NCBI GenBank assembly: GCA_017472965.1
Contig: JAFUNR010000045.1
Coordinates: 1 to 54,748, forward strand
Reading direction: 5' to 3'
From: Oscillospiraceae bacterium
GTDB taxonomy: Bacteria; Bacillota; Clostridia; Oscillospirales; Ruminococcaceae
DNA length: 54,748 bases
The translations under genes and the position numbers were made by a program. Positions 12,464 through 33,372 of this stretch are shown here, in pieces; positions within the stretch are counted from its first letter, which is position 1; every line of letters begins with the position of its first letter. The notes under the pieces are model-generated. The model was not told the DNA's origin. It did not search any database and saw nothing but the letters and a program-made list of their open reading frames with translations.

Positions 12464-12475
12464 TTACTTTTGTAA
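12464..12475. promoter_or_regulatory. BlaI-type operator, upstream copy
   Basis: The palindrome TTAC-TTTT-GTAA has the half-sites and spacing known for BlaI/MecI operators. It sits 19 bases before the -35 element of the blaI-like promoter. Its partner at 12534 is the reverse complement. Confidence 0.65.
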
Positions 12476-12494: not shown

Positions 12495-12524
12495 TTGACA
12501 GATCCCATCCCTGTGTGATAGACT
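12495..12524 (+). promoter_or_regulatory. Promoter of the BlaI / M56-sensor operon
   Basis: Perfect TTGACA (12495-12500), an 18-base spacer and TAGACT (12519-12524) with extended TGA. It lies between two TTAC-N4-GTAA palindromes, so repressor bound at both could fence it in. Confidence 0.6.
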
Positions 12525-12533
12525 GAAGGAAAG

Positions 12534-12545
12534 TTACAAAAGTAA
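12534..12545. promoter_or_regulatory. BlaI-type operator, downstream copy
   Basis: The palindrome TTAC-AAAA-GTAA begins about 10 bases after the -10 hexamer, so it covers or follows the transcription start. Its centre is 70 bp from the upstream copy, close to a whole number of DNA turns. Confidence 0.65.
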
Positions 12546-12565: not shown

Positions 12566-12940
12566 TTGGAAGAACAGAAGGATAAGATCCACGGCGCAGA
12601 GGTGGAGATCATGCAGGTGCTGTGGGAAAAAGAAGAGCCCGTGCCGTTGGCACAGCTGTGTGCCGAGCTCAACAGCCGCTGCGGCTGGGCGGATTCCACC
12701 ACGCGTACACTGCTGCGCCGTCTGCAGCAGCGCGGCGCAGTGGTGCTGGTCAGCCGCGGGGTCTATGCGGCTGCCGTCACGCAGGATGCCTACGGTCAGC
12801 ATACCGCCCGCCGTCTGGTGGATAAGCTTTTTGCCGGCAGTGCCCGAAAGCTGGTGGCAGCGCTTGTGCGGGACGGTTCTCTCAGTCAGGCGGATGTGGA
12901 TGAGCTGTACGCCATGTTCCATGCGGAGGATAAAAAATGA
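12566..12940 (+). CDS. BlaI/MecI family transcriptional repressor
   Basis: A 124-residue winged-helix repressor of the BlaI/MecI/CopY family, whose dimers bind TTAC-N4-GTAA palindromes and are inactivated by cleavage after the partner M56 sensor is triggered. The N-terminal winged helix has the family pattern AEVEIMQVLWEKEEPVPLAQL, then STTRTLLRRLQQRGAVVL (recognition helix and wing). The C-terminal dimerisation helices include RRLVDKLFAGSARKLVAALV. The start is TTG at 12566, decided by GGAGGGAG at 12552-12559, and the first ATG in frame would remove part of the first helix. It overlaps the M56 gene by 4 bases, so the two are translationally coupled. Confidence 0.9.
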   Translation: MEEQKDKIHGAEVEIMQVLWEKEEPVPLAQLCAELNSRCGWADSTTRTLLRRLQQRGAVVLVSRGVYAAAVTQDAYGQHTARRLVDKLFAGSARKLVAALVRDGSLSQADVDELYAMFHAEDKK

Positions 12941-15900
12941 AAGAATTTCTCATCCTGCTGGGCTGGCTTTCTGCGTCCGGCGGGGTATTGGCGTTGGCAG
13001 TGGCCGCGGTGGGGCGCTTCAGCAAAGGGCGCCTGAGCCGTGCATTCTGCTGCGGGCTGTGGGTGCTGGTGCTGCTGCGGCTGGTACTGCCGTTCGGCGT
13101 GCCGGGCGGGCTGAAGCTGCACACACCGGCTGCCCTGCTGCAGCGACAGCTGCGGCAGGTGCGCTGGGAGCAGCGTATGGAAGCGTTGCAGCAGGGGCCT
13201 ACACCGGCGGAACAGCCAGCCGCGCCGCAAAGCACGGCGGCAGAGGAAAATACAGCGGATCTGTCGGCAGATCCAGCAGAGGCGACCGGCTCTCTTCCCG
13301 AGGCTTCTGCGCTGTCCGGCGCAGAAGCGGGGGAGACCGAAGCTTCACAGCTACTTCCGCTGGCGCAGATCACTGACGCGCAGCAGCTCCCGCCGCAGCG
13401 GCAGAGTATGCTTATCCCGGTTCTGTTCTGGGTGTGGGCATCGGTGGCTGCGCTGCGGCTGCTGTGGCTGCTGGTCAGCTACGGCAGCTTTCGCCGCAGG
13501 GTGCTGCGCGGTGCACAGCCTGCCCGACCGGAGGATGCTGCTCTGCTGGCAGAAGTGTACGGCGGCCGACGGCTGAAGCTGGTGCGCAGTACGGCGGTTG
13601 ATTCGGCCATGGTATTCGGCATTCTTCGGCCGGTGGCGATCCTGCCGGTGCAGGGGATCGCAGAAGCGCAGACCGGAGCCATTCTGCTGCATGAGATGAC
13701 CCACTACCGCCGCGGTGACCTGTGGCTGAAGTGGGCCGCCGCGCTGGCAGAGTGTATCCACTGGTTCAACCCGCTGGTGTGGTTTATGTGGCGGCAGGTG
13801 GCGCATGCCTGCGAGCTTGCCTGTGACGAGGCGGTCATCCGCACCATGACGCAGGAGGAGAAGATGCAGTACGGCGATATTCTGATCGCCTGTGCGGGCC
13901 GGCAGAAGCGTGCTGCGGTACCGGTGACGGCGATCTGTGAAGAAAAACAGATGCTTCGGGAAAGGCTGGTGCATATTGTGAGATACAAAAAACGGGGTTT
14001 GCTTTCGGTTTTCGCCTGCGTTTGCCTGCTGGCGCTGCTGTGCGGCTGCGCGGCGGCTATGGGGCCTGCGGATACCGGCCCTGCCGCCGGCGAGGCTGTG
14101 ATTGTTGAGGATCAGACGAAGAAAGCGGCTGTTGATATTACACCTTTGGAGCTGCCGGAGGCGATCGAACTGGTGCGCAACCATGTGCTGTGCGGCGGCA
14201 GGCTGTGGAAGGAAGGGATCGACCGCACGGAAGAGGATGCTCCCCAGAGGGTGCTCGTTGGAATGGATCCGGCAGGCGGACAGGCGCAGGTCATCCCGTT
14301 CGATTTTCCTGTGCTGCATGAGGAGTACGAGCAAAAGGAGGACTCGCTGCTGCAGCTGCCGGAGGATGTGTACTGTATACAGGTTTCGGAGCAGCTGATC
14401 GATTGCGGAGAGGAATACCCGGCGCTGCTTCGGGCTCACATGCACTATCAGGGCTACGGGGAAGGCGCGCAGAGTATCTTTATGGAATACCGTCTGGGAA
14501 AAATCGGCGCGAACGGTGTTTTGGAAAGCGACACGGTGATGCAGTATGTGCCGCAGGGCAGCGAGGTGCTGCTTTTCCACTGCAGCTCGCCCGGCGTGCT
14601 CTGGGTCGAAAACTTCGATTGGTCGCTGGGTGTCGCACAGCCGCGCAGGCTGCTGGGGCTTTCCACGGCGGATGGCGCTGTGCTGTACGATATTCCCGTG
14701 CCGGTATCCACAGCGATCGTGTCGGTACAGCCGCTGGCAGATAATCGCCTTGCGGTGCATCTGTGCGATATTGAACAAGGCGATTCCGGCGGTTTTATGT
14801 ATCTGCGCGAAACCGGCCGGCTCTGTCTGCTGGATCTGGTCGAGAAAGAGCCTGCGTTTGGCCGTGCGCTGGAGCTTCCCGAAAGCTTTACTGCGGAAAG
14901 TGAATTTATGCTGGCGGATTTTCCGGTGCAGCAGCCCGCTGAAAATGTGACGCTGTACAATCATAACGGGCTTTATGTGTGGGATATCACAGATACCGCT
15001 CTGGTCAAAATATACGATTGGGCCGCAGCCGGTCTGCGCGTGATGCGTTTTATCGCCGTAAATGCGGCAAGCGACTATCTGCTTTTGCCGGACGGCACCC
15101 TGTTTGCCGTGCAGCAGCAGGAGGACTCTCTGCGCCTGCTCACGCTGCGCCCTGCGGAGGATGCGCAGCAGGTCACGGAGGACGGCAGGCAGGTCATCAC
15201 CGTGGGCGGCTGGACAACAGGCATTCCCTTTGATCTTCAGGGGATGATCGCGGATTTTAACCTGAGCCATACGGATGTGCGTGTGGAGCTTATGGACTAC
15301 AGTGATGAGGCGGGAAAGAAAGCGGGACTTGCGGATGGCAGCGCGCTGCTGGAACGGGATATCATCATGGGCAAAGGGCCGGATATCCTGCTCCTGCGGG
15401 CGGAAAGCGCCGCAAAGCTGACCCGTCACGGCGCGCTTGCCGATCTCTACCCGCTGCTGGATGCGGATGAAGAGCTCTCGCGGTCGGATATTCTGCCGAA
15501 CATTCTGGCCGCGCTGGAAACGGAGGGCTGTCTGCCCGCGCTGCTGCCGAATTTCAACATCAGCACAGCAACGGGAAATGCCGGGATCATCGGCGCCGAG
15601 CCGGGCTGGAGCTATGCGGAATTTGAGACCGCTGTCGCCGCCGTCGGTACGGATACGCCCATCAACGGCTATATTGGCCGCAAAGAGGAGCTTTGGTGGC
15701 AGCTGCAAAACGGCGGCAAAGCCTTTATCGATCACGCAGCCGGCAGGGCAAATCTGAATTCTCCCCGTTTTATTGCCCTGCTGGAAACCATAGCCGGCTA
15801 TCCGGAACAGGCGGTCAACGATTACGAGGGCAATCCCAAGCAGAAATATGCGGACGGCACCGTTTTGCTGCAGTTCACCGTGGTTCAGGATTTCAAGTGC

Positions 15901-16446
15901 ATGCGCGAGATCATGTATGAATACGACAATGCGCCGGTGTTCAAGGGATACCCCAACGATGTGGGGACCAACGGCAGCTGGCTGGGCGGTAATCTGCGTA
16001 TCGGCATCAATGCCGCAAGCGGCGAGCAGCAGCTTGCGTGGCAGTTCCTGCGTATGTTCCTGCAAAAGCAGTATCAGGACCGGCTGTGGCGGGGAAAGAA
16101 CATGTTCGAAAGCAGTTTTCCCATCAATACGGAATCACTGCAGGCCATGGCACAGGCGGCGCAAATTCCGGATAAAGGCCTTACGGGCGTACCCGGCTAT
16201 CTGGGAATGGCGGTTGACTGGCCGCAGGAGCAGCTGGATTACTGGAAGCGCGGCGTCACCGATGAGGAAATACAAATGGTGATGGAGCTCATTGCATCCA
16301 CCGAAACGCTGTTTCAGTTTGATGATGAGATCTCTGCCATTGTCAATGAAGAGGCCGCCGTTTTCTTTGCCGGCGGCCGCACCGCACAGCAGACCGCTGC
16401 GATCCTGCAGGATCGGGTGCAGACCTATCTGGATGAGCAATCCTGA
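12937..16446 (+). CDS. M56 (BlaR1-type) protease fused to propeller and solute-binding domains
   Basis: A 1169-residue sensor-transducer. Residues about 5-180 hold three hydrophobic segments around a long Ala/Glu/Pro-rich loop. The zinc protease core follows, with HEMTH at 252-256 in the BlaR1-like context HEMTHYRRGDL, and HACELACDEAV. A further membrane segment (about 352-372) ends in LLCGCAA, a near-lipobox. After it, instead of a penicillin-binding domain, comes a beta-propeller-like region (about 385-745) and a solute-binding-like domain (about 750-1169) paralogous to the lipoproteins at 23488-25887 and 26047-28434; the ends RVQTYLDEQS and RVQTWLDEQS almost match. Known family role: an external ligand activates the protease, which leads to loss of the BlaI repressor. 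Ligand identity (a glycan) is inferred. Confidence 0.9.
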   Translation: MKEFLILLGWLSASGGVLALAVAAVGRFSKGRLSRAFCCGLWVLVLLRLVLPFGVPGGLKLHTPAALLQRQLRQVRWEQRMEALQQGPTPAEQPAAPQSTAAEENTADLSADPAEATGSLPEASALSGAEAGETEASQLLPLAQITDAQQLPPQRQSMLIPVLFWVWASVAALRLLWLLVSYGSFRRRVLRGAQPARPEDAALLAEVYGGRRLKLVRSTAVDSAMVFGILRPVAILPVQGIAEAQTGAILLHEMTHYRRGDLWLKWAAALAECIHWFNPLVWFMWRQVAHACELACDEAVIRTMTQEEKMQYGDILIACAGRQKRAAVPVTAICEEKQMLRERLVHIVRYKKRGLLSVFACVCLLALLCGCAAAMGPADTGPAAGEAVIVEDQTKKAAVDITPLELPEAIELVRNHVLCGGRLWKEGIDRTEEDAPQRVLVGMDPAGGQAQVIPFDFPVLHEEYEQKEDSLLQLPEDVYCIQVSEQLIDCGEEYPALLRAHMHYQGYGEGAQSIFMEYRLGKIGANGVLESDTVMQYVPQGSEVLLFHCSSPGVLWVENFDWSLGVAQPRRLLGLSTADGAVLYDIPVPVSTAIVSVQPLADNRLAVHLCDIEQGDSGGFMYLRETGRLCLLDLVEKEPAFGRALELPESFTAESEFMLADFPVQQPAENVTLYNHNGLYVWDITDTALVKIYDWAAAGLRVMRFIAVNAASDYLLLPDGTLFAVQQQEDSLRLLTLRPAEDAQQVTEDGRQVITVGGWTTGIPFDLQGMIADFNLSHTDVRVELMDYSDEAGKKAGLADGSALLERDIIMGKGPDILLLRAESAAKLTRHGALADLYPLLDADEELSRSDILPNILAALETEGCLPALLPNFNISTATGNAGIIGAEPGWSYAEFETAVAAVGTDTPINGYIGRKEELWWQLQNGGKAFIDHAAGRANLNSPRFIALLETIAGYPEQAVNDYEGNPKQKYADGTVLLQFTVVQDFKCMREIMYEYDNAPVFKGYPNDVGTNGSWLGGNLRIGINAASGEQQLAWQFLRMFLQKQYQDRLWRGKNMFESSFPINTESLQAMAQAAQIPDKGLTGVPGYLGMAVDWPQEQLDYWKRGVTDEEIQMVMELIASTETLFQFDDEISAIVNEEAAVFFAGGRTAQQTAAILQDRVQTYLDEQS

Positions 16447-18114: not shown

Positions 18115-19497
18115 TCATTCTTCTGCGGCGGGCTTGCAGGGCTCGGCGGCTGCCGATGCGCTGCTGCGCATCTCTTCAAAAACGGTGTACAGCACCCAGC
18201 ACAGCACTGCCAGCAGCGAGATGGCGTGCCACTTGATATCCACCACCGCAGGTTCGTTCATTAAAAAATTACGGTAGCAGGAATAGGATGCCAGCACGGT
18301 GATCAGCGGCAGCGGCCAGCGGCGGCGGTTTTGCAGGAATACCAGCAAACTGCCGAGATCCGCCAGAAAGAAATACCGGTCGTGCATATGCGGCAGCAGA
18401 AACGGCACCAGCAGCACACAGGCATAAAAGAGCATCGGAAACAGCCGTTCGTTCAAACCGGTGCGCAGCTGCCAGCACAGATACAAAAACAGCAGCACGG
18501 CTGCGCCTGCCAGAAAAACCGCAGCGCGCGAAAATGGTTCGATAGCCACATGACCCAGCAGCACCCAGACAGAGGGTGCGTTCAGATGCATCTGGGGGTA
18601 AAGCTCTGCCTGATCGGTGTACACCTGCAGACAGGCGGCAAGGCTTTGTCCGCCCAACAGCACGGGCAGCAGCATGGCAAAAAAGACGGCAGGCGCCCAT
18701 GCCAGATGCCGCAGCCGTATGCGCCGGGTGAAAAGACCGAGAATCAGTACCGGCAGCGCAAACACCGCCTGCAGCTTGAAGGAAAAGGCCAGTGTCCACA
18801 GGATCACTGCCGCACCGCCCTGCTTTTTCAGCAGATGGTACAGCATGCCCAGACAAAGCGCAGCGTAGACCATATCGCACTGCGCCCAGAAGCTGCTGTT
18901 CAGCCAAACGGTGGGCAGCGCCAGTGTCATCAGGTAGGCCGCCGTGCGCAGCGGTACAGAGGGAATGTACAGGCTGCACAGCCGACTCATGTAGAATGCC
19001 CCCAGAATGTCAAACAGGCAGCTCAGAGCCTTGATGGCGTACAGGCTGTTCCAGTCTGTGCGGGAAAGCAAAAACAGAAGAATCTCATACGGGGCGTTGT
19101 AATTGCCGATATCGGAGCGCACCGTCTGCGAAAAGCTCAGCGGGCGCATATCCTCCACCCAGTGCACCAGAAAAGAATTGTAATCGCCGGAGCGGTAGTA
19201 AAACAGGCATACACGCACATAGATGAGCGCTGCCGCCGCAAGCGCTCCGCAAAGCAGGGTGACTGCATCGGTATTGCGCTCGGTGATCAGCGGCAGCATG
19301 GCGGCAAAGCACAGCACTGCGGCGAAAACTGCAGCCTGACCCGGCTGGGCAAGCAGCAGTGCCTCGCGGTCACAGGAGAGCACAAACAGGTACATCACCA
19401 GACCCGCCAGTACCGCTGCCAGAAAAAGAACCGATGCCCGCAGCAGCTTTATGCTGCGGATGTGCGGCGTTTTCAAAAGGGAAGCGGAGGTTTTCAT
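18115..19497 (-). CDS. Polytopic GT-C-like glycosyltransferase or related membrane protein
   Basis: A 460-residue protein with about ten or more membrane segments. An early loop contains YYRSGDYNSFLVHWVEDM, where acidic residues typical of GT-C lipid-linked sugar transferases sit (the GDY / HW region). The stretch LNSSFWAQCDMVYAALCLGMLYHLLKK resembles Gpi18-like / DUF2029-type mannosyltransferases (FWAQCD motif), and PFLLPHMHDRYFFLADL is another conserved feature of that group. Such enzymes move sugars from a polyprenyl-phosphate donor on the outer face of the membrane. It overlaps the MFS gene stop by 4 bases (ATGA), so it is the last gene of the GH32/GH29 operon. Specificity is unknown. Confidence 0.75.
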   Translation of the reverse strand: MKTSASLLKTPHIRSIKLLRASVLFLAAVLAGLVMYLFVLSCDREALLLAQPGQAAVFAAVLCFAAMLPLITERNTDAVTLLCGALAAAALIYVRVCLFYYRSGDYNSFLVHWVEDMRPLSFSQTVRSDIGNYNAPYEILLFLLSRTDWNSLYAIKALSCLFDILGAFYMSRLCSLYIPSVPLRTAAYLMTLALPTVWLNSSFWAQCDMVYAALCLGMLYHLLKKQGGAAVILWTLAFSFKLQAVFALPVLILGLFTRRIRLRHLAWAPAVFFAMLLPVLLGGQSLAACLQVYTDQAELYPQMHLNAPSVWVLLGHVAIEPFSRAAVFLAGAAVLLFLYLCWQLRTGLNERLFPMLFYACVLLVPFLLPHMHDRYFFLADLGSLLVFLQNRRRWPLPLITVLASYSCYRNFLMNEPAVVDIKWHAISLLAVLCWVLYTVFEEMRSSASAAAEPCKPAAEE

Positions 19498-20843
19498 GCA
19501 TCGGCCTCCGCAGCGCGTTTGGCTTTATGCCGTGCGGCAAAGAACAGGGGGATCAGGCTCAGCAGCACAGCGCCTGCACCCGCCAGCAGCAGCGTATGGG
19601 TGGGCAGATAAGCGGTAAAGCCGTTTTCATCCACATATTCGCCGCTGCGCTTGATGATGGGATTGGAAAGCAGCGGCGCTGCCACCATCGGGATCAGCAC
19701 AAAGAACAGGATACGGATACCCTCGAACTGACCGCGGGCATCGGTGGGATACAGCTGCTTGCTCCAGACCGTCACCGCCTGCAGGAAAAGGATATACCCC
19801 AGCCCCAGCAGGAAAACACCGCCCAGCAGCACGGGATTCAGTACCGTGGCGGGATCCACATTCTCCGGCCGGACAAAAAGTCCCAGCACGCCGGTGCCGA
19901 TGCTGCTGAGCAGAATACCCGCAGCACACAGCTGCGGCGCAAGGCCTTTGTTCAGCAGACCGCCTGCGGGGATCACCACCAGCATGGCCGCCAGCAGGGC
20001 AACGCCCTCGATCAGCCCCATGGTTCCGGCGTCAAAGCCCAGATAATAGATCATGTAATTGCCCAGATGGGTGAAATACATATTGAAGGCGATGAAATAC
20101 GCCGCCAGCAGCAGATTGACCCACACCAGCTCCCGCAGAGCAAAATACCGTTTGAAATTAAAGGCATACAGCAGCTGACGGCAGAAGCTGCCCTGCTTAT
20201 GCGGCTGCAGCGCGGGAGAGTCCTTCATAAAGAACAGCGCAAATACGCCGAACAGGATCACCGCACCGCCCATCACGCAGAAAAGCCGCAGATAGTTGTC
20301 ATCACTGCCCACCAGCATACCGCCGACAACAGTGCCCACAATGGTGCCGATCACCGGCTGCACAGCGATAGCGCCGCCCAGCTGGCCGCGGTTTTTGTCG
20401 GTCATGTGGTCATTCATCCACGCGTTGAAGCCGCTGTCGTTGCCCATGCTGCCGAAAAAGCTCATGATGGCATCGGCAGCCACCACAGCAAAGCCCGCCA
20501 CCAACAGTGTCTGCGTGCCGGGCGCTGCGCCGCCGCCGGTGATGAACTGGGTCATACCGAACAGAATGGTAAAAACGCCCCACAGGATGTAGCCCCATGC
20601 GATCAGCGGCTTGCGGCTGCCGCGCCGGTCGGAAACGGTGCCGAACACAAAGGTCGAAACCGTGGTGGCGGCAGCGGAAACCGCGGTCATCCACGCGATG
20701 ATGGTGGGATCCTTGGCGATACGGGCGTATATAAAGGTGTTGAACCACTGGTTTTCCATGTTCCAGCAAAGCTGGCCGGCCAGACCCAGCCCCCATACCA
20801 GGAGCCAGAAGCCGGCAGGAGCGGTTCGATCTTTTTTCGACAT
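19494..20843 (-). CDS. MFS transporter
   Basis: A 449-residue transporter with 12 predicted membrane segments. The loop between helices 2 and 3 (FGTVSDRRGSRKPLIAWGY) is the major facilitator G-x-x-x-D-R-x-G-R-[RK] motif. The centre has a cytosolic loop (DSPALQPHKQGSFCRQLLYAF). MFS proteins move sugars, oligosaccharides or drugs by proton or sodium coupling. Its place between GH29-like and GT-C-like genes suggests sugar transport. AAAGGAG precedes the ATG. It starts 40 bases after the GH29-like stop. Confidence 0.9.
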   Translation of the reverse strand: MSKKDRTAPAGFWLLVWGLGLAGQLCWNMENQWFNTFIYARIAKDPTIIAWMTAVSAAATTVSTFVFGTVSDRRGSRKPLIAWGYILWGVFTILFGMTQFITGGGAAPGTQTLLVAGFAVVAADAIMSFFGSMGNDSGFNAWMNDHMTDKNRGQLGGAIAVQPVIGTIVGTVVGGMLVGSDDNYLRLFCVMGGAVILFGVFALFFMKDSPALQPHKQGSFCRQLLYAFNFKRYFALRELVWVNLLLAAYFIAFNMYFTHLGNYMIYYLGFDAGTMGLIEGVALLAAMLVVIPAGGLLNKGLAPQLCAAGILLSSIGTGVLGLFVRPENVDPATVLNPVLLGGVFLLGLGYILFLQAVTVWSKQLYPTDARGQFEGIRILFFVLIPMVAAPLLSNPIIKRSGEYVDENGFTAYLPTHTLLLAGAGAVLLSLIPLFFAARHKAKRAAEADA

Positions 20844-20883
20844 AGTCTGTTCTCCTTTTACGGAAAGTAAAATTGGATTTGAT

Positions 20884-21927
20884 TTATACGCCGGGTGCGC
20901 GGCGCAGACCGGCCAGCATTTTCAGCACACGCAGCTGGTCGGGATCGATGCGGCCGTCGCGGTACAGGCAGACATCCAGCGAGACCACGCCGCCGCAGGT
21001 GTTCACCTGCTTGATGTATTTCATCAGGTATTCGATGGAATATTTGCAGCCGCGGGCGCCCCAGCCGTCATATACTTCGATGGGGTGGTTGGGAATGCCC
21101 AGAAAAGAGAGGATATGCGCCTGTGCGCCATCCACCAGCTGCGCTTCGGGGTATACATCCAGCGAAACGACCTCACCGGCGGTGTAATCGCAGTACGGGG
21201 TGGGCGGTGCGATCTCATGGTAAAAATCACCCATGATGACAGGCCGGTTCAGCCCCGGCACCTGTACCTCATGACCGGTTTTGAAGCAGCCGTACCAGTT
21301 GGCGGCAAACAGAGTATCCGGATTGCCTGCTTTGGCGGCGTCTGCAAAAGGCTTCACCCGCTCGGGGGTATAGCCCAGCGCGGGGTAGGCACCGTCCAGC
21401 CACCAGCCGGCGATTTTATTGCCGTAACGAAGGGCATATTCCTTCATCACTTCAGCCCATTTTTCGATAAAATCATCCGTCACCGGGGCTTTGCCTGCGG
21501 CGATATCCACCTCGGCGCCGTAAAGACCCAGCATAGCCTTGGGATCCTTGTGAGGGCCGTCGCCGGTGTAATACAGGAACAGAGGGATATCATATTTGTC
21601 CAGCGCCCTGATCAAATCGGCGATCAGGTCGCGGGTGCTGTCGCCCTCACCGGGGGCGAAGCCGGTATAGCGGCGGTAGGTCTCGTTGGGGGCGCACAGA
21701 TAACGGGTGCCCTGCATAAGGGTGAAAACCAGATATCCGGCGTTTGCCTGTGCCAGCTGCCTGGCCAGAAGCTCTACATCCAGCTCATTGACGCATTCAT
21801 CCCAGCCGGTGGCATAACCTCTGGTATTGTGATAGTTGCCGCCGGCGTTCTGCACAGCGGAAAGATAATGGCAGAAAACGCCCCATTTGCGGTTGGCGAA
21901 CCAGTTTTGCTGTTCGGTAGGCTGCAT
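20884..21927 (-). CDS. GH29-like glycoside hydrolase (alpha-L-fucosidase-like)
   Basis: A 347-residue TIM-barrel enzyme. The N-terminal KWGVFCHYL resembles the KFGIFIHWG motif of GH29 alpha-L-fucosidases, and IAGWWLDGAY places Asp178 where the family nucleophile (W-x-D-G) sits. It is shorter than classic fucosidases, lacks the C-terminal beta-sandwich, and has no signal peptide, so it is probably cytosolic and may act on imported oligosaccharides. AGGAAAGGA precedes the ATG. It sits 45 bases after the GH32-like gene. The fold assignment is good, but alpha-fucosidase activity is only one possibility. Confidence 0.72.
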   Translation of the reverse strand: MQPTEQQNWFANRKWGVFCHYLSAVQNAGGNYHNTRGYATGWDECVNELDVELLARQLAQANAGYLVFTLMQGTRYLCAPNETYRRYTGFAPGEGDSTRDLIADLIRALDKYDIPLFLYYTGDGPHKDPKAMLGLYGAEVDIAAGKAPVTDDFIEKWAEVMKEYALRYGNKIAGWWLDGAYPALGYTPERVKPFADAAKAGNPDTLFAANWYGCFKTGHEVQVPGLNRPVIMGDFYHEIAPPTPYCDYTAGEVVSLDVYPEAQLVDGAQAHILSFLGIPNHPIEVYDGWGARGCKYSIEYLMKYIKQVNTCGGVVSLDVCLYRDGRIDPDQLRVLKMLAGLRRAPGV

Positions 21928-21972
21928 AATGATTTTTCCTTTCCTGCTATATGGATTTGCAAAAAGAAATGC

Positions 21973-23367
21973 CTATTCCTCTGGGAGATACAGACGGATG
22001 CCGGTAAAATCCACCGTGTTGTTGGTGGCAAAAAGTCCCCAGCCTGTGCCGGTGTGATCGTACATCCGGCTGCTTTGCGCAACGGCATTGTCGATGTAGA
22101 CCTCCAGCACACTGCCCTCGATGATAACGGTCAGGTGATGCTTTTCGTCCGGCGCGATGGGAATGTACCGTTCGCCCTCAAAATGGTACAGCCGGTTATC
22201 CCAGAAGACCAGCCGGCTGAAGCGCGGCTCAAAGCGCAGCGCATAGCCGTCAGTGCCGGTTTCGGTGCGCAGCAGCAGGCCGAATTCACCGTTTCTGCTT
22301 TCGGCGGAGAAATCCAGTTCGATGCGGCAGCGTGCGGGCAATGTGCCCAGCAGCCGGGTGGATTTACCGTCGGCGCTGCCGATGCGCCAGCCGTCCGGCA
22401 GCTTTTCGCTGCAGCCCCGCGCAGGGGCGGCCTCTGCCGGTGCGGCAGGGGCGGAAAACTGCGCGGCGATCTCGGCGGGGCAGCCGATGCGCAGTGTGCC
22501 GTCCGCATTCTGGAAAAGCTCGTGCGGGACGATGCTGCCGCCCCACTGGTAGTCGCCTGTATCGCTGTTGCCGGCTTTGGTGCGGTTCCAGCCGAACAGA
22601 ATGCGGCGGCTGCCGTCACTGGCGGTCTTGGCCGCGTAATGCAGCGCACAGTCCAGACTGTTCTCGATGGGGGTGATCCACGGACCGTTGGGGCTTTTGC
22701 TCATGCGGTAGCTGGTAACACCGCGGTCGGAGTATTCGCTGAAAAGCAGATACCACCAGTCGCCCATCCGGAAAAGATCGGCGCATTCCGGCGGCGAGGC
22801 AAAGGTACCCGGGGCATAAAAAGGCGTATCGGCAAAGCGCCAGTGTAAAAGATCGTCAGAATATGCGATCAGATTGGCGCTGACAGGCAGACCGTCCCTG
22901 CCGGTATACAGGGTGGTGGTCAGCATACACCAGCCCTTGCCGTCGGGGTTTTCGTAAACAAAGGGATCACGGAAATCCTGCGTTGCTGCCCAGTCGGGCG
23001 CATCCAGTACGAAATCGGGACATTTGCGCCAGTGGTACAGATCGTCGCTTACCGCCAGCAGCACGCGTTCCTTTTTCGGCAGCAGATGGTTATGGCCGGT
23101 GTAAAAGATGTAATACCTGCCGTTTGCTTCGATGCAGCTGCCGGTGAAGACATACAGATCCTGCTCATCTTTTGTGCCGCGGGGGAGCATCTCACCATGC
23201 TCGGTGTAATGCACCAGATCCTGCGTGGTGACAAGATTCCATGGCACGCCCTCACCGCAGTGCTCGATATCACGGAAATCCTTCAGATAGAAAAGATACC
23301 AGGTGCCGTCCTTGTAAAAAGGGATCACATCGCCGCAGGCGGCTTTTTCATCGGGGCGGTAATACAT
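21973..23367 (-). CDS. GH32-like glycosidase (fructosidase type)
   Basis: A 464-residue five-bladed beta-propeller enzyme plus C-terminal beta-sandwich, matching GH32 fructan/sucrose hydrolases. The nucleophile region ACGDVIPFY (Asp13), the DFRDPF motif (RDP at 133-135, transition-state stabiliser) and PPECADLF (Glu194, acid/base, in the E-C motif) are all present. The usual WMNDPNG start is changed, so substrate use may differ from plain sucrose. The ATG at 23367 is chosen over the one 6 bases upstream because AAAGGA is then 9 rather than 3 bases away. No signal peptide: cytosolic. It is the first gene of a four-gene unit with its own promoter. Confidence 0.85.
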   Translation of the reverse strand: MYYRPDEKAACGDVIPFYKDGTWYLFYLKDFRDIEHCGEGVPWNLVTTQDLVHYTEHGEMLPRGTKDEQDLYVFTGSCIEANGRYYIFYTGHNHLLPKKERVLLAVSDDLYHWRKCPDFVLDAPDWAATQDFRDPFVYENPDGKGWCMLTTTLYTGRDGLPVSANLIAYSDDLLHWRFADTPFYAPGTFASPPECADLFRMGDWWYLLFSEYSDRGVTSYRMSKSPNGPWITPIENSLDCALHYAAKTASDGSRRILFGWNRTKAGNSDTGDYQWGGSIVPHELFQNADGTLRIGCPAEIAAQFSAPAAPAEAAPARGCSEKLPDGWRIGSADGKSTRLLGTLPARCRIELDFSAESRNGEFGLLLRTETGTDGYALRFEPRFSRLVFWDNRLYHFEGERYIPIAPDEKHHLTVIIEGSVLEVYIDNAVAQSSRMYDHTGTGWGLFATNNTVDFTGIRLYLPEE

Positions 23368-23427
23368 GAGCATATGTCCTTTCCGCCGGGTGGAGAGCCC
23401 CGGCCACGGGGAAATATTCTTATATAC

Positions 23428-23456
23428 ATTATAAAAGCTCCGGATGCAAATTGCAA
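23428..23456 (-). promoter_or_regulatory. Promoter of the GH32 operon, inside a terminator hairpin
   Basis: On the minus strand TTGCAA (23456-23451), exactly 17 bases, perfect TATAAT (23433-23428). The -35 element is the loop of the terminator hairpin 23437-23467 and the -10 is in its T-run. Confidence 0.7.
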
Positions 23457-23467
23457 GCATCCGGAGC
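23433..23467 (-). terminator. Terminator after the first propeller lipoprotein gene
   Basis: A perfect 11-bp stem (23437-23447 with 23457-23467) with a 9-base loop, followed on the minus strand by TTTTATAAT. It ends the lipoprotein transcript while the embedded promoter restarts transcription for GH32. Confidence 0.8.
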
Positions 23468-23487
23468 AAGGAGGGAGGAAATGGGTA

Positions 23488-25887
23488 TCAGCTTTGCTCG
23501 TCCAGCCATGTCTGGACGCGGTTTTGCAGGATCGCGGCGGTTTCGGCGGCGGAGCGCTGACCGGCAAAATACACGGCGGCTTCCTCGGAAAGAATATCGT
23601 ACAGGCTGCCGTCGAACTGAAAAACGGTATCAATACTGCCGATCAGCTCTGTGATCTGTTGGCACTCCGCCTGTGTGATGCCCCGCTTCCAGTAGCGCTG
23701 CTGCTCTCCGGTCAGGCTTTTCATATCCAGATACGCCGGATGCCATCCGATATTGCGTGCGGGAACAGCGGCGGCCTTTGCGGCAGCTTCCAAAGCAGAT
23801 TTGCGCAGGGGAAAGCTGGGCAGACTGCCGGAAGTCTGCTGCTGCAGGCTGTTCTGGAAAGCCGGCAGCAGGAATTGCCGTACAAACTGCCAGGCGGTTT
23901 CGGGGCTGCGGCAATCCTTTGTGATGCCAATGCGCAGGTCGGGCGTCATGGCGCTGCTGCAGCTACCGTCCCCGTTGGGATAGCCTTTGAAGACCACGCC
24001 GCTTTCGAATTCGTAAGCCAGCTGCCGCATATTGGTAAAGCTCCACAGATTGCAGTCCTTGAGCACGGCGCGGCCAAGGGAGAGCTCCGCCTTGAAGTCG
24101 GTGACGGTGTCATTAGCGCTGCCGCCGCATTTGGCGGCGTTTTCCATGGCGCGGATGAATTCGGCGCTGTCCAGATGCGCCTGTCCGGCTTCGTAATCGA
24201 TAAAGCGGCTGCCGCCCAGCAGCACCGTGTACCACAATGCTGTCTGCGGGGTGATCTCCGCAATGGGTGCAGCGGTATCCGGATACTGAGCCAGCAGCGT
24301 CTCGTATTCCTGCCAGCTCCAGCCCTGCCCGGGGCTGACCTTATCCGCCGGTGCGGCCAGTGTGTGGATGCGGTAGGCAGGCACAACTGTGGCAAGTGCA
24401 CCGTTGAATTCGCAGGCCTGCAGCAGGTTTTCAAAGAAATCCTCCCGTGTCAGTCCGGGATCCGCATCCAGCAGCGGGTACAGATCGATGAAGAGCCCCT
24501 TGCGGATAAAGCTGTTGTTGTTCGTGCCGTTGGGCAAAAACAGGATATCCGGCGCAGCGCCGCGGATGATATCATTTTCCAGCGCGGCAGCCCCGCCGCT
24601 CCAGTTGTTCACCTCGGAATCAAAACTGCCGTAGTCGATCAGCTGCGCGTAGGCCTCCGGGTTGGATCGGTTGAAGGCCAGTACCTGTCCGGCAATGCTT
24701 TCGGCGGCGCTGCCGGTACAGCCTACCGTAATGAGGGTGCGGCCTTCCAGCATGGAGCTGTCCGCAGGGGTCAGTGTGTAAAGCCGCAGCGGCTGTCCGG
24801 CGGGCAGACAGGGAGCGCTCTGATCGGCCTGTGCCTGCAGCACCGCCAGATACTTTTCGTCTTTCAGCGCAAGTACGGCATGAAGCTCCTCGTGTGGGAT
24901 GCCGGAATCCAGCCAGCGTACCAGCGGCACGGCAGTGCCTGTTGCGGTATCCCATTGCCACAGCGCGCTTTCGTTCCAGACAAGGATGCTTGCGGCTGTA
25001 CTGCCGCTTTGCAGCACCGGCCGCAGAGTGAAGCCGGTTTTCAGCACCTCCGGCACGGGGATGCTTTCATTGGCCGCATCTGCTGCAGGATCAAAAATAC
25101 AGGCGATGCGGTCGGCAGCGCTGAAGCCCCCCTCCTGTACGGCAAAACCCAGCAAAAGAAGTTTGCCGTCGGCCAGCGGATGCAGGGAATCCCAGTAGCC
25201 CTGCGGGGCGGTGAAGCGTTCCTGCTCCCTGCCGTTTTTTGCCAGCCGGAGCAGCTGTGTACCGCTGCAAAGCCACAGATATTTGTCATCGGCTGCAGCG
25301 CTCTCGGGAAAGCTGCCGAAGCTGTCTGTGGGGATCTGCCCGGCAAGCGGCAGTACCGTTTCCACAGCGCCATCCCCGTTCCAGCACACCAGCCATGCGG
25401 CATTATCCGGACGGGTCTCCGGCTCGTAAACAGAGCTGTCGAGGTTGGTGTAGCTGGCATGGATGATGCCGTACAGGCTGCCGTTTTTGTCGGCAAGCAG
25501 CCGGTCCAGTCCGGGGGATACGCCCCATCGGCCGTCCAGCTCCTCCGGCACGGGAAGGGTGGGCATCTGCAGCGGAATGCAGCGGGCACCGCTGCCGTCT
25601 GCGGCGGCGCAGATCACCAGATCCCCCCAGCTGCCGCCTTCGGTGATGCTGCTGTCGGCATCGGCGGGATAGGTGCCGGTGCCGGTGATGTACAGCTGCC
25701 CGCCGGCGGCGGTGACACCGGTGCAGTAGACAAGGTGCTCCCCAAGCCCGGTATCCTGCTCCGATACAAGTGCCGGCAGCAGTACGGCGGGATCGGCTGC
25801 GTCAGGCGCATCGCTGCAGCCGGATAAAGCAAAGACACACAGGCAAAGCACCGGCAGAAGGAGCAGCAGACGGTGTGTTTTTTTCAT
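23488..25887 (-). CDS. Lipoprotein with propeller-like and extracellular solute-binding domains (copy 1)
   Basis: A 799-residue exported lipoprotein with a lipobox ending LSGC (Cys24). Residues about 30-375 show repeated short beta blades of the kind DGxL-LLG / KYLAVLQ, like a beta-propeller. Residues about 380-799 resemble a family 1 ABC sugar-binding protein, with FNRSNPEAYAQLIDYG, then IDLYPLLDADPGLTRED, PGQGWSWQEYETLL and the end RVQTWLDEQS. It is paralogous to 26047-28434 and to the sensor half of the M56 protease. ATG at 25887 is preferred to a GTG 12 bases earlier because GGAAAGG is then about 11 bases away. Phased TTAAG repeats and an extended -10 lie upstream. It probably delivers ligand to the permeases at 31459-33290. 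Confidence 0.85.
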   Translation of the reverse strand: MKKTHRLLLLLPVLCLCVFALSGCSDAPDAADPAVLLPALVSEQDTGLGEHLVYCTGVTAAGGQLYITGTGTYPADADSSITEGGSWGDLVICAAADGSGARCIPLQMPTLPVPEELDGRWGVSPGLDRLLADKNGSLYGIIHASYTNLDSSVYEPETRPDNAAWLVCWNGDGAVETVLPLAGQIPTDSFGSFPESAAADDKYLWLCSGTQLLRLAKNGREQERFTAPQGYWDSLHPLADGKLLLLGFAVQEGGFSAADRIACIFDPAADAANESIPVPEVLKTGFTLRPVLQSGSTAASILVWNESALWQWDTATGTAVPLVRWLDSGIPHEELHAVLALKDEKYLAVLQAQADQSAPCLPAGQPLRLYTLTPADSSMLEGRTLITVGCTGSAAESIAGQVLAFNRSNPEAYAQLIDYGSFDSEVNNWSGGAAALENDIIRGAAPDILFLPNGTNNNSFIRKGLFIDLYPLLDADPGLTREDFFENLLQACEFNGALATVVPAYRIHTLAAPADKVSPGQGWSWQEYETLLAQYPDTAAPIAEITPQTALWYTVLLGGSRFIDYEAGQAHLDSAEFIRAMENAAKCGGSANDTVTDFKAELSLGRAVLKDCNLWSFTNMRQLAYEFESGVVFKGYPNGDGSCSSAMTPDLRIGITKDCRSPETAWQFVRQFLLPAFQNSLQQQTSGSLPSFPLRKSALEAAAKAAAVPARNIGWHPAYLDMKSLTGEQQRYWKRGITQAECQQITELIGSIDTVFQFDGSLYDILSEEAAVYFAGQRSAAETAAILQNRVQTWLDEQS

Positions 25888-25922
25888 ACGGCAGGTCACC
25901 CTTTCCTTGGTTTTGTGCTTTC

Positions 25923-25951
25923 AGTATAACAGAAGAAAAATTAAGAAAACA
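25923..25951 (-). promoter_or_regulatory. Promoter of lipoprotein copy 1
   Basis: On the minus strand TATACT (25928-25923) with extended TGT, and a poor -35 (TGTTTT, 25951-25946) 17 bases upstream. The weak -35 fits activator dependence. Confidence 0.55.
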
Positions 25952-25981
25952 GGGAGAAAACCTTAAGATTTCTTTAAGATT
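25941..25981. promoter_or_regulatory. Phased TTAAG repeats, probable OmpR-type regulator site
   Basis: TTAAGA occurs at 25941, 25963 and 25974, that is at offsets of 22 and 11 bases; the latter two form TTAAGATT twice with an 11-base period. Direct repeats in step with one DNA turn are typical of OmpR/PhoB-family response regulators. The pair lies 12 bases before the -35 of the lipoprotein promoter. Confidence 0.5.
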
Positions 25982-25987
25982 ATCCAT

Positions 25988-26024
25988 AGAAAAACCTCCC
26001 CGCGGTATGGGTGCCGCGGGGAGG
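25988..26024 (-). terminator. Terminator of the sugar permease / lipoprotein operon
   Basis: A perfect 11-bp GC-rich stem (25995-26005 with 26014-26024) with an 8-base loop and, on the minus strand, a TTTTT tail. Confidence 0.85.
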
Positions 26025-26046
26025 CTTTGGCGGTAAGGGGATGTGC

Positions 26047-28434
26047 TCAGCGGCTCTCGCTGATGTAGGTCTGGGCGCGGTTCTGGATGATGGCAGCGGT
26101 CTCCTGTGCGGTCTTGGTACCGGCAAAGAAGGCTTCGACCTCTTCCAGAATGATATCCATCAGACTGGAATCCCACTGGTACAGGGTGGTGGTGGAATCG
26201 ATCAGCGCCAATACACGGTCGATCTCCTCCTGCGTGATGGGACGGTTCCAGTAGTTTTCCTCGGTCATGTCCTCGCCGGGCAGCATATCGGCGATGCCGT
26301 CATCCACGATGATTTCCTCATCGGCGGCATCCTCCGTATCCTCCTCGACGGCTTCCCCGTCAACGGTCTCCTCAACGACGGTCTCCTCAACGACAGCCTC
26401 CTCCACAGCGATATCAATGGCAGGCATGGCAATGCCGTAGTCGTCGTTTTCGGGGTTCATGGCCTCTTCAATGCGCAGCTGCAGCACATCGCGGCGCAGC
26501 GGCAGCTGCCAGTGCATTTCCTCGGTCTGGTATTCCTCGCTGAGGAAGTAGCTGACAAATTCCCATGCGGCGGCCTTGTCGGGACAGGCCTCCGAGATCG
26601 CCAGCTGCAGGTTCGGCGAAATAGCGCTGCCGCAGCCGGTGCCGTCGGCGGTGGGCAGACCTTTGTAGATGACGGTATCGTTCATCATATAGGTGTATTC
26701 ACGGATGTAATCGGCAAAGCTGCTCATCCAGATCTGCATCAGCAGAGCGCGGCCATCGGCAAACAGCTCCTTTTCGCTGATATACTCATCGTAGTCCACG
26801 CTTTCGGGGTAGGTTGCCGCATATTCCAGCAGACGGATGAAGCCTTCGGAATCAAAGCTGCAGCGGCCGGTGGAATAATCCACATATTCCGTGCCGCCCA
26901 GGATCAGCGCCACATTCAGCATACTGGCACGGTCAAAATACGGGATAGCGGTTTTGCACTGGGGATACTGCTCCAGCAGGGCGAAGAATTCATCCCATGT
27001 CCAGCCGGGCTTGTCGCCGACGATACCGGCGGGGCCGGCCAGCGTGACGATGCCGTAGCCCGGCACGATGGACATCAGCTTGCCGTCTGCCTCGCAGGCG
27101 GTAAGTACGCTTTGCACCAGATCCTCGCGGGAGAGATCCTCATCCGCATCCAGCAGGGGGTACAGATCGGTGAAAAGGCCCTTGGCCACATAGTTCTGGA
27201 AAGGCAGGCTGGAATCCACCAGCAGCAGATCGGGCACCTTGCCTGTGATGATATCGGTATTCATCTGGGTGACGGCGCCGGTCCATTCGTTTTCCTGTGT
27301 GTTGTATTTGGAATAATCCACCAGTGTGATACGGGTGGTATCGCTGGCACGGTTGAATTTCAGTGCGGCGCGCTGCATCTCCCAGCTGTAGCTGCACGCC
27401 AGTGTCAGCACTACCTTTTCGGGCAGGGTGGCGGGATCCACCCAGGTCATGGTGGAAAGGATCATCTTGTTCCATTCCTCGCCCCGGCTCACGGCGATAA
27501 ACCGGCCGTCCTCCAGCGCGAAAAGACCGGTGATGGGATCGAAATCGATGTCGGAATCCAGCCAGCTGCACAGCAGCTCCATGGTGCCGGCTTCCAGATC
27601 GCAGCGGTAGATGCCGCTCACATCGTACATATACATCTGGCCGTTGGGATCAAAAACCAGCGTTCCGTTGGTGAATTCTTCCGGCACAGCCAGTTCTTCG
27701 CCCAGCTTTCCGGCGGCAAGATCCAGCTTGGTGTAGTGCGGGGTCCAGTCTTCGCCGCCGTAATAATAAACGACGACAGTTCCGTCCGCCAGCCGGAACA
27801 GGCGGTTGATGTAGCCGTTGCCGTCGGTCAGCACCTGAATGGTGCGGTGCGTACCGTCCATATTCACCTGCAGCAGATCGTTCTGGCAGGGGATCAGGAA
27901 ATCCTCACCGGTGCACAGGGTAAGATAGGTGTCTGCCCAGGTGTCCTCGGGGATCTCCAGCTCCACACTGGCGGCAACGCTGCCGTCCGCGGCCAGCTGG
28001 TTGATGAAATACTGCTCGGTATAGCTCCAATCCTCCTCATCGCCGGAGGACTGGGAAATGTACTCCACCGTGTACAGTGTGCCGCTGCCGTCTGTCAGCA
28101 GGTTCTGGATGCTGCCCCAGCCCTTTTCGGGATCGAATTCACGCTGCACCAGCGGCAGCTCCTGCAGATCGGTGCCGTCGGGTTTGACGCTGATCAGCTT
28201 GTTATCGGTACCGTTGTCGGTGTAGGTGTAGCCAATGGTATACAGACGGTCACCGGCAAAGATCACATCGTTGTAGCCTTCAACGATCTCTTCGATGCCG
28301 ACATCGGTATCCTCGGTGTCGTAGACGTGCAGAACGGCCTCCTGACGGCCTTTGTCAGAGCCGCAGCCCGCCAGCAGGCCGGCGCAAAGGCACAGCGAAA
28401 GCAGCAGGCAAAGCAGTCGTTTGAATGTTTTCAT
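26047..28434 (-). CDS. Lipoprotein with propeller-like and extracellular solute-binding domains (copy 2)
   Basis: A 795-residue lipoprotein with lipobox LAGC (Cys24). The N-terminal half (about 40-335) contains repeated strands of the kind GDRLYTIGY, DGSGTLYTVEY and NGQMYMYDV, consistent with a beta-propeller. The C-terminal half (about 338-795) is a solute-binding-like domain: LKFNRASDTTRITLVDYSKY, FTDLYPLLDADEDLSRED, GDKPGWTWDEFFALL. Residues about 675-705 carry an acidic Val/Glu-rich insertion made of a 15-bp tandem repeat, absent from copy 1. It ends RAQTYISESR. AGGAGG precedes the ATG, which overlaps the upstream MacB-core-like gene by 4 bases. It is the last gene of the permease operon, so it is the likely binding partner of those permeases. 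Confidence 0.87.
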   Translation of the reverse strand: MKTFKRLLCLLLSLCLCAGLLAGCGSDKGRQEAVLHVYDTEDTDVGIEEIVEGYNDVIFAGDRLYTIGYTYTDNGTDNKLISVKPDGTDLQELPLVQREFDPEKGWGSIQNLLTDGSGTLYTVEYISQSSGDEEDWSYTEQYFINQLAADGSVAASVELEIPEDTWADTYLTLCTGEDFLIPCQNDLLQVNMDGTHRTIQVLTDGNGYINRLFRLADGTVVVYYYGGEDWTPHYTKLDLAAGKLGEELAVPEEFTNGTLVFDPNGQMYMYDVSGIYRCDLEAGTMELLCSWLDSDIDFDPITGLFALEDGRFIAVSRGEEWNKMILSTMTWVDPATLPEKVVLTLACSYSWEMQRAALKFNRASDTTRITLVDYSKYNTQENEWTGAVTQMNTDIITGKVPDLLLVDSSLPFQNYVAKGLFTDLYPLLDADEDLSREDLVQSVLTACEADGKLMSIVPGYGIVTLAGPAGIVGDKPGWTWDEFFALLEQYPQCKTAIPYFDRASMLNVALILGGTEYVDYSTGRCSFDSEGFIRLLEYAATYPESVDYDEYISEKELFADGRALLMQIWMSSFADYIREYTYMMNDTVIYKGLPTADGTGCGSAISPNLQLAISEACPDKAAAWEFVSYFLSEEYQTEEMHWQLPLRRDVLQLRIEEAMNPENDDYGIAMPAIDIAVEEAVVEETVVEETVDGEAVEEDTEDAADEEIIVDDGIADMLPGEDMTEENYWNRPITQEEIDRVLALIDSTTTLYQWDSSLMDIILEEVEAFFAGTKTAQETAAIIQNRAQTYISESR
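26363..26407. repeat. 15-bp tandem repeat within lipoprotein copy 2
   Basis: ACGGTCTCCTCAACG occurs twice in tandem (26363-26377, 26378-26392), with a third degraded copy to 26407. It encodes VEETV-type repeats and keeps frame, so copy number could vary without breaking the gene. Confidence 0.7.
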
Positions 28435-29636
28435 GGGGCAGCCTCCTCGGTTGTTTCTTCCGGCACAGCGGCCGGAGCGGTAATATCATTGTATCCGCCG
28501 GATGTATCGGCGGTGTATCCGGAGCCTTCGGCATCCTCTGCGGCAGATCCGGACGATGCAGCGGCGGGGTGTGATGCGTTCCATGCGGCGGTGCGGCGGC
28601 GGTCAATGGCGCGTTCCAGCAGACTCCGCACATCCCGCAGCCGCCAGCGGCGCCGCTTCCACAGAAGGATAAGTACAGCGGCGGCGAAAAGCACCGGCCA
28701 TACAAGGCAGACGAGCGCAGCGCCGAACAACAGCGCCGCCCGGGTCTGCTGATAGCGGGCGGCATTCTCCCACCAGGGGAAGATAGCGGCGCTTGTGCGC
28801 ATGGAAGCGCGGGGGATGTCCTTCAGCGTGCTCCACAGGCCGGATGCACGGTAGCGCACACTGTTTTCCAGCAGCACGCAGTCCCGGCTTTCGGTGCCAA
28901 AGATTTCTTCTGCCAGCTGCAGAGCAAAGTTGGTATAAGGATTGGGCAGTACTGCCTCATAGCAGGTCAGCGCAAGCGTTTCGGCGTTGGCAAGGCTTTC
29001 GTAAAAGATCCATACACGGGGGCGTTCGCCGTAGGTCAGCACGGCGGCGCTGTCATCTGCGACAGCGGTCACGCCGCACACATAATAGAGCCTGCCGTTC
29101 AGTGTGACGGGCCGGCCCGTTACATCCGGCGAACCGAAGAGCTGCCATGCCGCAAGCTCATCCAGCAGGATGGTATCCCGCCGTTCGTCCGCGCCGGAAA
29201 AGGTGCTGCCGCTTTTCAGCTGCTGCGGGTGAAAATGAAAGAAGTCGCCGTCCACAGCGGTGACAGTCACGCTTGCACTGCCCCGGTCGGTGGAGGCTGT
29301 GCCGGTCAGTTCTGTGCTGGCGGCATCCAGCCACAGCCTGGCATTTTCATTGGCAGGCTCAAGCGAGGCCTGCGTCAGCCGGCTGTCGGTCTGTGCGCGG
29401 ATGCGCAGCAGCTCCTGCGGGGAAAGCGCCGAGCCCTGCGGCAAAAACAGACTGATCTGTGCAAAAGCGGTGTCATCTGCCGCCCAGCGCCGTGCCGCCT
29501 GCTGATCGCTGCGGTCGGTAATGCGGGAGCAGCCCAGCAGCAGCGCCGCAGCCAGCAGCACCAGCAGCAGGGCCATGCCGCCGCCGATCAGCCACCGCAG
29601 CCGGTTTGCGCCGGCGGGCTTCAGTTTGATTTTCAT
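28431..29636 (-). CDS. MacB periplasmic-core-like membrane protein without FtsX domain
   Basis: A 401-residue protein with a signal-anchor at about 14-36, an extracytoplasmic region (about 40-300) resembling MacB_PCD (VTAVDGDFFHFHPQQLKSG, then LDELAAWQLFGSPDVTG and LYYVCGVTAV), one C-terminal membrane helix (about 304-326), and a Ser/Ala/Glu-rich cytosolic tail. Normal MacB proteins add an N-terminal ATPase and three more FtsX helices, none of which are here. It is directly coupled with the MacA-like adaptor upstream (12-base gap) and overlaps lipoprotein copy 2 by 4 bases. It is probably a structural or anchoring partner of the adaptor, not an independent transporter. Confidence 0.7.
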   Translation of the reverse strand: MKIKLKPAGANRLRWLIGGGMALLLVLLAAALLLGCSRITDRSDQQAARRWAADDTAFAQISLFLPQGSALSPQELLRIRAQTDSRLTQASLEPANENARLWLDAASTELTGTASTDRGSASVTVTAVDGDFFHFHPQQLKSGSTFSGADERRDTILLDELAAWQLFGSPDVTGRPVTLNGRLYYVCGVTAVADDSAAVLTYGERPRVWIFYESLANAETLALTCYEAVLPNPYTNFALQLAEEIFGTESRDCVLLENSVRYRASGLWSTLKDIPRASMRTSAAIFPWWENAARYQQTRAALLFGAALVCLVWPVLFAAAVLILLWKRRRWRLRDVRSLLERAIDRRRTAAWNASHPAAASSGSAAEDAEGSGYTADTSGGYNDITAPAAVPEETTEEAAP

Positions 29637-29648
29637 CGGCGGCCCTCC

Positions 29649-31406: not shown

Positions 31407-31458
31407 GAGAAAAATCCTTTCTGTGCTTCGATACAAAATCCGTCAGACAGTGTAAAGG

Positions 31459-33290: not shown

Positions 33291-33372
33291 AGGCACCTGC
33301 CTTTCATTGTGCTCTCTGCCCGGGGTGTCAAAGGCAGTGAAAATCCATTATTTTAGTATTTAATATAAATAT

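Follow-up and report, generated by a model that had tools for sequence, protein, structure and literature searches.

What becomes of a BlaR1-type receptor when the domain that it carries outside the cell is not a penicillin-binding one? The question is raised by a gene at 12937..16446 of a 54,748-nt contig from an Oscillospiraceae bacterium (the whole contig is called the window here, and coordinates refer to its plus strand unless the minus strand is named), which encodes an M56 zinc protease fused to a propeller-like and solute-binding-type sensor (1169 aa). From the sequences of this receptor and its relatives we favour, at a probability of roughly 0.57, the reading that it is a BlaR1-type receptor whose fourth transmembrane segment (TM4) also serves as an internal lipoprotein signal, the sensor ending as a lipid-anchored protein.

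A preliminary description of this stretch, made from the letters alone, had proposed an M56 protease with an HEMTH zinc motif and four membrane segments. Profile searches bore this out: Peptidase_M56 (Pfam PF05569) matched residues 15–346 (12979..13974; E 3.4e-44; 151.6 bits against a cut-off of 31), with HEMTH at residues 252–256 (13690..13704), and four hydrophobic segments were found (cores at residues 4–22, 37–55, 162–180, and 355–373), the weaker hydrophobic peaks from residue 218 to 251 falling inside the protease. In a weak alignment to S. aureus BlaR1 (8exs, E 0.0024), His252, Glu253, and His256 fell on the HExxH of residues 201–205, and Glu293, Asp297, Tyr312, and Arg343 (13963..13965) fell on Glu242, Asp246, Tyr261, and Arg294, the last of which lies on the domain-swapped helix; all of these residues are in place in the window receptor, and their roles in BlaR1 are described in an excerpt of PMC9834060. 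The receptor thus resembles BlaR1 and MecR1 of S. aureus and B. licheniformis in its M56 domain, its four membrane helices, its adjoining BlaI-type repressor and, as far as the weak match goes, its active-site equivalents, but differs from them in its propeller-like and solute-binding-type sensor and in the lipobox-like end of TM4. It scored 93.7 bits against the NCBIfam BlaR1 equivalog model, which has a cut-off of 400 bits, and gave no transpeptidase match that would indicate a penicillin-binding domain. The BlaR1 protease loop is cytoplasmic (PMC3356374, in excerpt) and both BlaR1 termini lie outside (PMC9834060, in excerpt), so TM4 runs outward, as a signal peptide does.

TM4 of the window receptor (residues 355–373; 13999..14055), which we read as a putative internal type II signal peptide, ends in LLCGCAA, as had been pointed out before, and holds a lipobox-like L-C-G-C (residues 368–371; 14038..14049) whose last residue, Cys371, is the lipobox candidate and lies at the outer membrane face. 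Its charge, its hydrophobic stretch, its −3 and −1 residues, and the Cys itself all fit a lipoprotein signal. Contig C38 of this genome encodes another receptor built in the same way (1182 aa, 37% identical over 1226 aligned columns), behind a BlaI-like frame; its lipobox, LIGC, is of the standard form, and a neighbour of this gene starts like a lipoprotein, also with LCGC. Outside the genome, the window receptor could be aligned with an M56 protein of another genus (G147; L017/L312) that carries an unrelated sensor, and the alignment reaches residue 377, beyond Cys371. The lipobox of that protein is ISGC, and in all three proteins the Cys lies 28 residues after the active-site Arg. The alignment past the Cys, together with the equal spacing, suggests that TM4 and the lipobox belong to the M56 module.

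We then surveyed TM4 in M56 proteins at large, using a PF05569 search of 100 genomes, the window's own included, of which 56 had a match; rows above about 122 bits were taken, except for five loci that could not be parsed (L107, L131, L146, L148, and L169) and three that were fragments or duplicates (L130, L003, and L011), and 3 of the 162 rows went unscored, as their TM4 zone was shorter than 45 residues. The rule for calling a lipobox was written after the first examples had been seen, so the counts are not blind. A lipobox-like Cys at the outer end of TM4 was called in 35 of the 107 M56 proteins from the window's family (32/101, 18 of them strict, when the rows of the window's own genome were excluded), as opposed to 8.8 ± 2.6 of 107, and at most 16, in 1000 shuffles of the hydrophobic stretch. 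The same rule applied elsewhere in these proteins called 2/107 in the TM1–3 part and 0/98 after TM4. A looser comparison used an internal G+LPP pattern and returned 34/107 against 11.2 ± 3.0 (maximum 21; 500 shuffles). A profile of Cys positions along TM4 compared with TM2 was smeared and was not used.

Beyond the family, where mostly the best-scoring loci were taken, the lipobox was called in 5/26 loci from the order and 5/26 from the phylum, and a second batch from the order gave 7/19, plus L312, which had been chosen for having one. It was also called in 3/28 M56 proteins from the genomes behind named loci, and in two of five plasmid records (picked from 44), both from Subdoligranulum variabile. 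The sensors that follow these motifs are varied. A scan of 35 of them (34 hand-chosen from 44, and one split lipoprotein) found BNR repeats in five, M23 in three, SBP_bac_1 in two, and a transpeptidase, LRR, and DUF881 in one each, the remainder belonging to other families or matching nothing. TM4 lipoboxes precede many unrelated kinds of sensor. Among the matches listed in a search of open-licence literature, no title or abstract start dealt with lipoboxes that are internal or belong to M56 proteins.

To follow the motif by descent, a tree was built from 159 M56 domains without TM4 (L017 is absent from it). The lipobox label required 27 changes on this tree, compared with 39.3 when shuffled (0/500 shuffles as low); the label is thus clustered, and must have been gained or lost several times. 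Clade A, used in full (11 rows, support 98), has the Cys in 10 of 11 rows and Ser in the remaining one. The stretch CTFTG is kept over deep divergence in this clade (for example in L111, L141, L143, and L150), which is more than a tether needs; since the TFTG after the Cys is kept about as well, the whole motif appears to be held, and not the Cys alone. A count of 19/20 Cys in a set named B was not used as evidence, the rows having been picked largely by their Cys.

Further evidence came from M56 genes that end before TM4, of which eight were examined. Seven of them (L332, L340, L381, L382, L383, L384, and L386, each from a different genome of family f14) are followed directly by one to three lipoprotein genes, 11 in total, with two in tandem in L332, two in L383, and three in L384. 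All 11 begin with the M56 segment that lies between the catalytic core and TM4 (the last cytosolic helix), followed by TM4 and a lipobox (LVAC in seven, and LVSC, LVGC, LAGC, and MVAC), which is standard in 10 of the 11. The two L332 lipoproteins are nearly identical over their first 54 residues and diverged in the remainder. A Shine-Dalgarno-like stretch precedes the start in all 10 of the split lipoprotein genes examined for it (the second L383 gene was excluded), and a BlaI-type gene stands in front of the split operons of L332 and L340. The eighth gene (L387, from G607) lacks TM4 and is not followed by a lipoprotein gene.

The position of the break was compared with what is described for BlaR1. 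According to excerpts of PMC9834060, S. aureus BlaR1 cleaves itself between Ser283 and Phe284, in a loop (271–289) that joins helix 8 to the domain-swapped helix 9 (bearing Arg294), which in turn leads into TM4; an earlier paper, also consulted in excerpt, placed the cut at Arg293/294, about ten residues further on (PMC3356374). In the window receptor the alignment to 8exs would place the Phe284 position (P1′ of autocleavage) at Ile333 (13933..13935), 10 residues before Arg343. The break in the split M56 genes falls at this autocleavage loop: by spacings counted by eye, the split proteases stop 13–26 residues past the helix-8 Tyr, and the split lipoproteins start some 7–18 residues before the aligned P1′ position. 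An equivalent of Arg294 is present in 11/11 split lipoproteins (for L332, Arg22 was assigned by eye, the script having taken an earlier Arg). With a start near P1′ and the Arg in all 11, the split lipoprotein gene corresponds to the domain-swapped module. Of the split proteases, six were nearest, among the rows compared, to proteins of branch B, a mixed group with lipoboxes and other endings, while L386 was nearest to ordinary LTNP-type proteins and so probably had a separate origin. The window receptor is like these operons in pairing an M56 protease with a lipobox-type sensor, and unlike them in that the f14 operons have separate sensor genes, one to three per protease, with dissimilar sensors.

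A second group of genes, 14 sensorless M56 genes that end just after TM4 (L122, L162, L333–L339, and L342–L346), offers mixed support for separate lipoprotein partners. A lipoprotein gene follows at once in three (L122, L162, and L336), a conserved membrane protein follows in six (in L339, one gene on), and other genes without a lipobox start follow in five. In L333, L334, L335, L337, L338, and L339, a sensorless M56 protein of about 300 aa is followed by a membrane protein of 320–350 aa with a PKYIIPYTPIA-type stretch, which may be a separate partner; two of these six are cut or incompletely read. In L349, the M56 match ends at residue 217 of 296.

Against these findings stand a number of observations that weigh on the other side. 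The window's own LCGC departs from the standard lipobox [LV][ASTVI][GAS]C at its −2 Cys, a residue that the standard set excludes at that position (PMC8048626, in excerpt). Only 19 of the 35 called proteins have the standard form, and about five of them (L068, L075, L114, L129, and L172, judged by eye) show an ordinary xTNP ending with a Cys; 72 of the 107 family proteins were not called at all. The window's TM4 also lacks the G+LPP pattern. In family f14, 5/29 best loci were called, three of them ambiguous (CAANP or CAFNP). On the tree, branch B (32 rows, support 88) has 18 called rows, or 21/32 by a relaxed pattern, one of these (L120) mid-helix, and in the 12-row neighbourhood of the window pair only three were called, the pair included. 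As for the split genes, none appeared among the rows retrieved for the window's own family, and a profile of the pre-TM4 segment placed 5/11 split lipoproteins under the inclusion threshold and the others, among the matches listed, mixed with controls; we therefore base their kinship on the repeated N-termini, the position, and the Arg.

Several of these points would be expected of an ordinary one-chain receptor, in which TM4 is a plain anchor, Cys371 is incidental, and the sensor is covalently attached as in BlaR1: the non-standard −2 Cys and the missed G+LPP pattern, a window TM4 that is rich in Cys anyway, and the absence of the motif from most M56 proteins and from nine rows of that 12-row neighbourhood. 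We regard this as a serious though doubtful alternative, given the standard LIGC of the C38 paralogue, the ISGC at equal spacing in the other-genus protein, and the LCGC shared by the lipoprotein-like neighbour of the C38 gene. Our preferred reading, in which the sensor is a lipidated module and TM4 its internal type II signal peptide, probably holds for the class of M56 proteins with a TM4 lipobox; lipidation and cutting of the window receptor itself, and the passage of a signal through it, are steps that we infer.

The genome is a draft (63 contigs, 85% complete, 2.9 Mb), and the fusion might for that reason be put down to an assembly or frameshift artefact. This is scarcely credible: the 1169 codons at 12937–16446 run from protease to sensor with no stop or frameshift, in keeping with the continuity assumed in the preliminary description, and a second copy at 37% identity on another contig shows that the fusion is not made by the assembly. 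Seven M56 hits were found in the genome, including two near-identical genes of 894 aa on contigs C50 and C56, which may be a repeated sequence or reflect strain variation within the assembly. Among the genomes searched, the fusion itself is rare. A family-wide search for M56 proteins joined to such sensors, which the preliminary description had called for, yielded the C38 copy and nothing further, neither in 396 family genomes searched with the pair as a profile (up to two candidates scored per genome, E limit 1e-60) nor in 148 searched with the window protein alone (up to four scored per genome); a first scan of genome contigs also found no relative. Among 96 open reading frames (ORFs) for sensor relatives (from 80 loci, 80 being kept of 133 relatives), none contains an M56 domain, and blastp at 1e-4 showed no relative of M56 or BlaI proteins near them in the available stretches. 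The idea that the fusion is widespread was rejected on these grounds.

The sensor had been described as a propeller plus a solute-binding domain, and profile comparison supports this. A profile, A4, was made from the window sensor, two lipoproteins of the window, and 48 relatives (51 rows; 49 relatives had been hand-picked from the 96 sensor ORFs, and L214 was lost because its lipobox was not parsed). Its columns 394–767 matched solved sugar-binding proteins (7x0o CbpC, E 3.7e-43), which indicates a solute-binding fold by homology over the domain, and its columns 41–256 matched, in parts, PQQ/BamB-type propellers (E about 1e-2 to 8.5e-10). SBP_bac_1 (PF01547) matched 48/51 rows of A4 at E up to 0.01; on the window protein itself it gave 22.1–23.3 bits over residues 767–1047, under the curated cut-off of 26. 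In the window receptor, the propeller-like region spans about residues 408–740 (14158..15156, limits approximate), and the solute-binding-type domain about residues 750–1169 (15184..16443). By profile, the C-terminal half of the sensor is like the sugar-binding proteins of ABC importers (SBP_bac_1; 7x0o CbpC and 5z6b YesO), from which the window protein differs in its added propeller-like N-terminal half, its junction to a protease, and its score under the Pfam cut-off. The ligand may be a glycan, perhaps an oligosaccharide.

The two window lipoproteins are encoded on the minus strand at 23488..25887 (lipobox LSGC) and 26047..28434 (lipobox LAGC), and the kinship previously proposed for them holds, at 36% identity to the window sensor over 589 residues and 30% over 575, respectively. 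A loose lipobox pattern was present in 48/49 hand-picked sensor relatives, and a stricter script flagged 31/96. On contig C9 (L064, 2153–12623), a BlaI-like gene is followed by an M56 gene whose product has M23-type repeats and FAGC at the end of TM4, and then by three lipoproteins whose homology to the fusion sensor begins at the signal peptide. The minus strand of the window at 18115–33296 carries ABC permease, HlyD-/MacB-like, two sensor-like lipoprotein, GH32, fucosidase-like, and MFS genes.

These stand-alone paralogues, in the window and beside the C9 BlaI–M56 pair, bear on the origin that had first been suggested for the receptor, namely that a whole lipoprotein was fused with its own signal peptide behind a three-helix M56 protein and that its lipobox later decayed. 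The homology of the sensor to stand-alone lipoproteins stands, the lipoprotein signal peptides do align with TM4, and the near M56 kin are mostly without a lipobox. We nevertheless consider this origin improbable: the alignment with the M56 protein that has an unrelated sensor passes through TM4 and Cys371 to residue 377, L017 comes near to having the same TM4 and lipobox with a different sensor, and M56 proteins with other sensors often have a TM4 lipobox. The lipobox of the C38 paralogue, moreover, is standard. Instead, we take it that a mature lipoprotein sensor was joined to an M56 module that already held TM4 and the lipobox. This account is weakened by the absence of L017 from the tree and by tree neighbours that mostly have no lipobox, and TM4 is too short to settle the descent.

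The repressor partner named in the preliminary description was confirmed as a BlaI/MecI-type protein of 124 aa with a TTG start (12566..12940), matching Penicillinase_R (PF03965) at E 2.8e-22 and 79.7 bits against a cut-off of 22.6. Its gene overlaps that of the receptor via ATGA, which places a BlaI/MecI-family repressor in the same operon. Upstream lies a promoter-like TTGACA-18-TAGACT (12495..12524), a consensus match only (one in the stretch, with 2.1 expected in shuffles), and on either side of it stand two dyads, operator candidates 1, TTACTTTTGTAA (12464..12475), and 2, TTACAAAAGTAA (12534..12545). The pattern TTACNNNNGTAA occurs three times in the window, against 0.15 expected, and 14 times in the genome (in 2.9 Mb, 85% complete), where a backward control pattern occurs 43 times. 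Four of the 14 form two pairs, one before each fusion repressor, and no other close pair and no target gene were found in the 2.9 Mb. Because the sole close pairs precede the two fusion repressors, the system appears to be mainly self-regulating. The C9 repressor is preceded by a different dyad, TTATGACAA...TTGTCATAA (L064, between 1853 and 2170), so that repressor probably has its own operator type.

In the mechanism that we propose, the outside sensor would control the cytoplasmic M56 zinc protease, which is predicted to inactivate the BlaI-type repressor encoded in the same operon. Cys371 of TM4 would be lipidated by Lgt and could be the site of a cut by signal peptidase II; the sensor would then stand next to the protease, anchored by its lipid and no longer part of the same chain. 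Lipoprotein predictors that consider only the N-terminus would miss this fused form. Alternatively, M56 proteins with a lipobox might watch lipoprotein maturation, the uncut TM4 joining protease and sensor, and a failure of Lgt or LspA altering repressor cleavage. Such a role would explain one motif across many unrelated sensors, but split genes offer no joined state to read, and the variety of sensors suggests varied ligands; we think it very unlikely.

Taken beyond the window, the comparisons lean slightly towards the existence, in Bacillota, of a lipoprotein-based BlaR1-like class, in which TM4 would be an internal signal and a free, exchangeable lipoprotein sensor would act non-covalently with the protease. 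In the split form, as many as three lipoprotein sensors may share one protease, and each would contribute a domain-swapped helix that carries the active-site Arg. The standard example of a signal passed along a covalent chain of sensor, helix, and protease is BlaR1. If our reading is true, this chain would be dispensable, sensors would be swappable like parts, and lipoprotein maturation would be a step in signal transduction. The genes split at the self-cleavage loop, besides, are naturally suited to testing the domain-swapped dimer model of BlaR1 and the purpose of its autocleavage.

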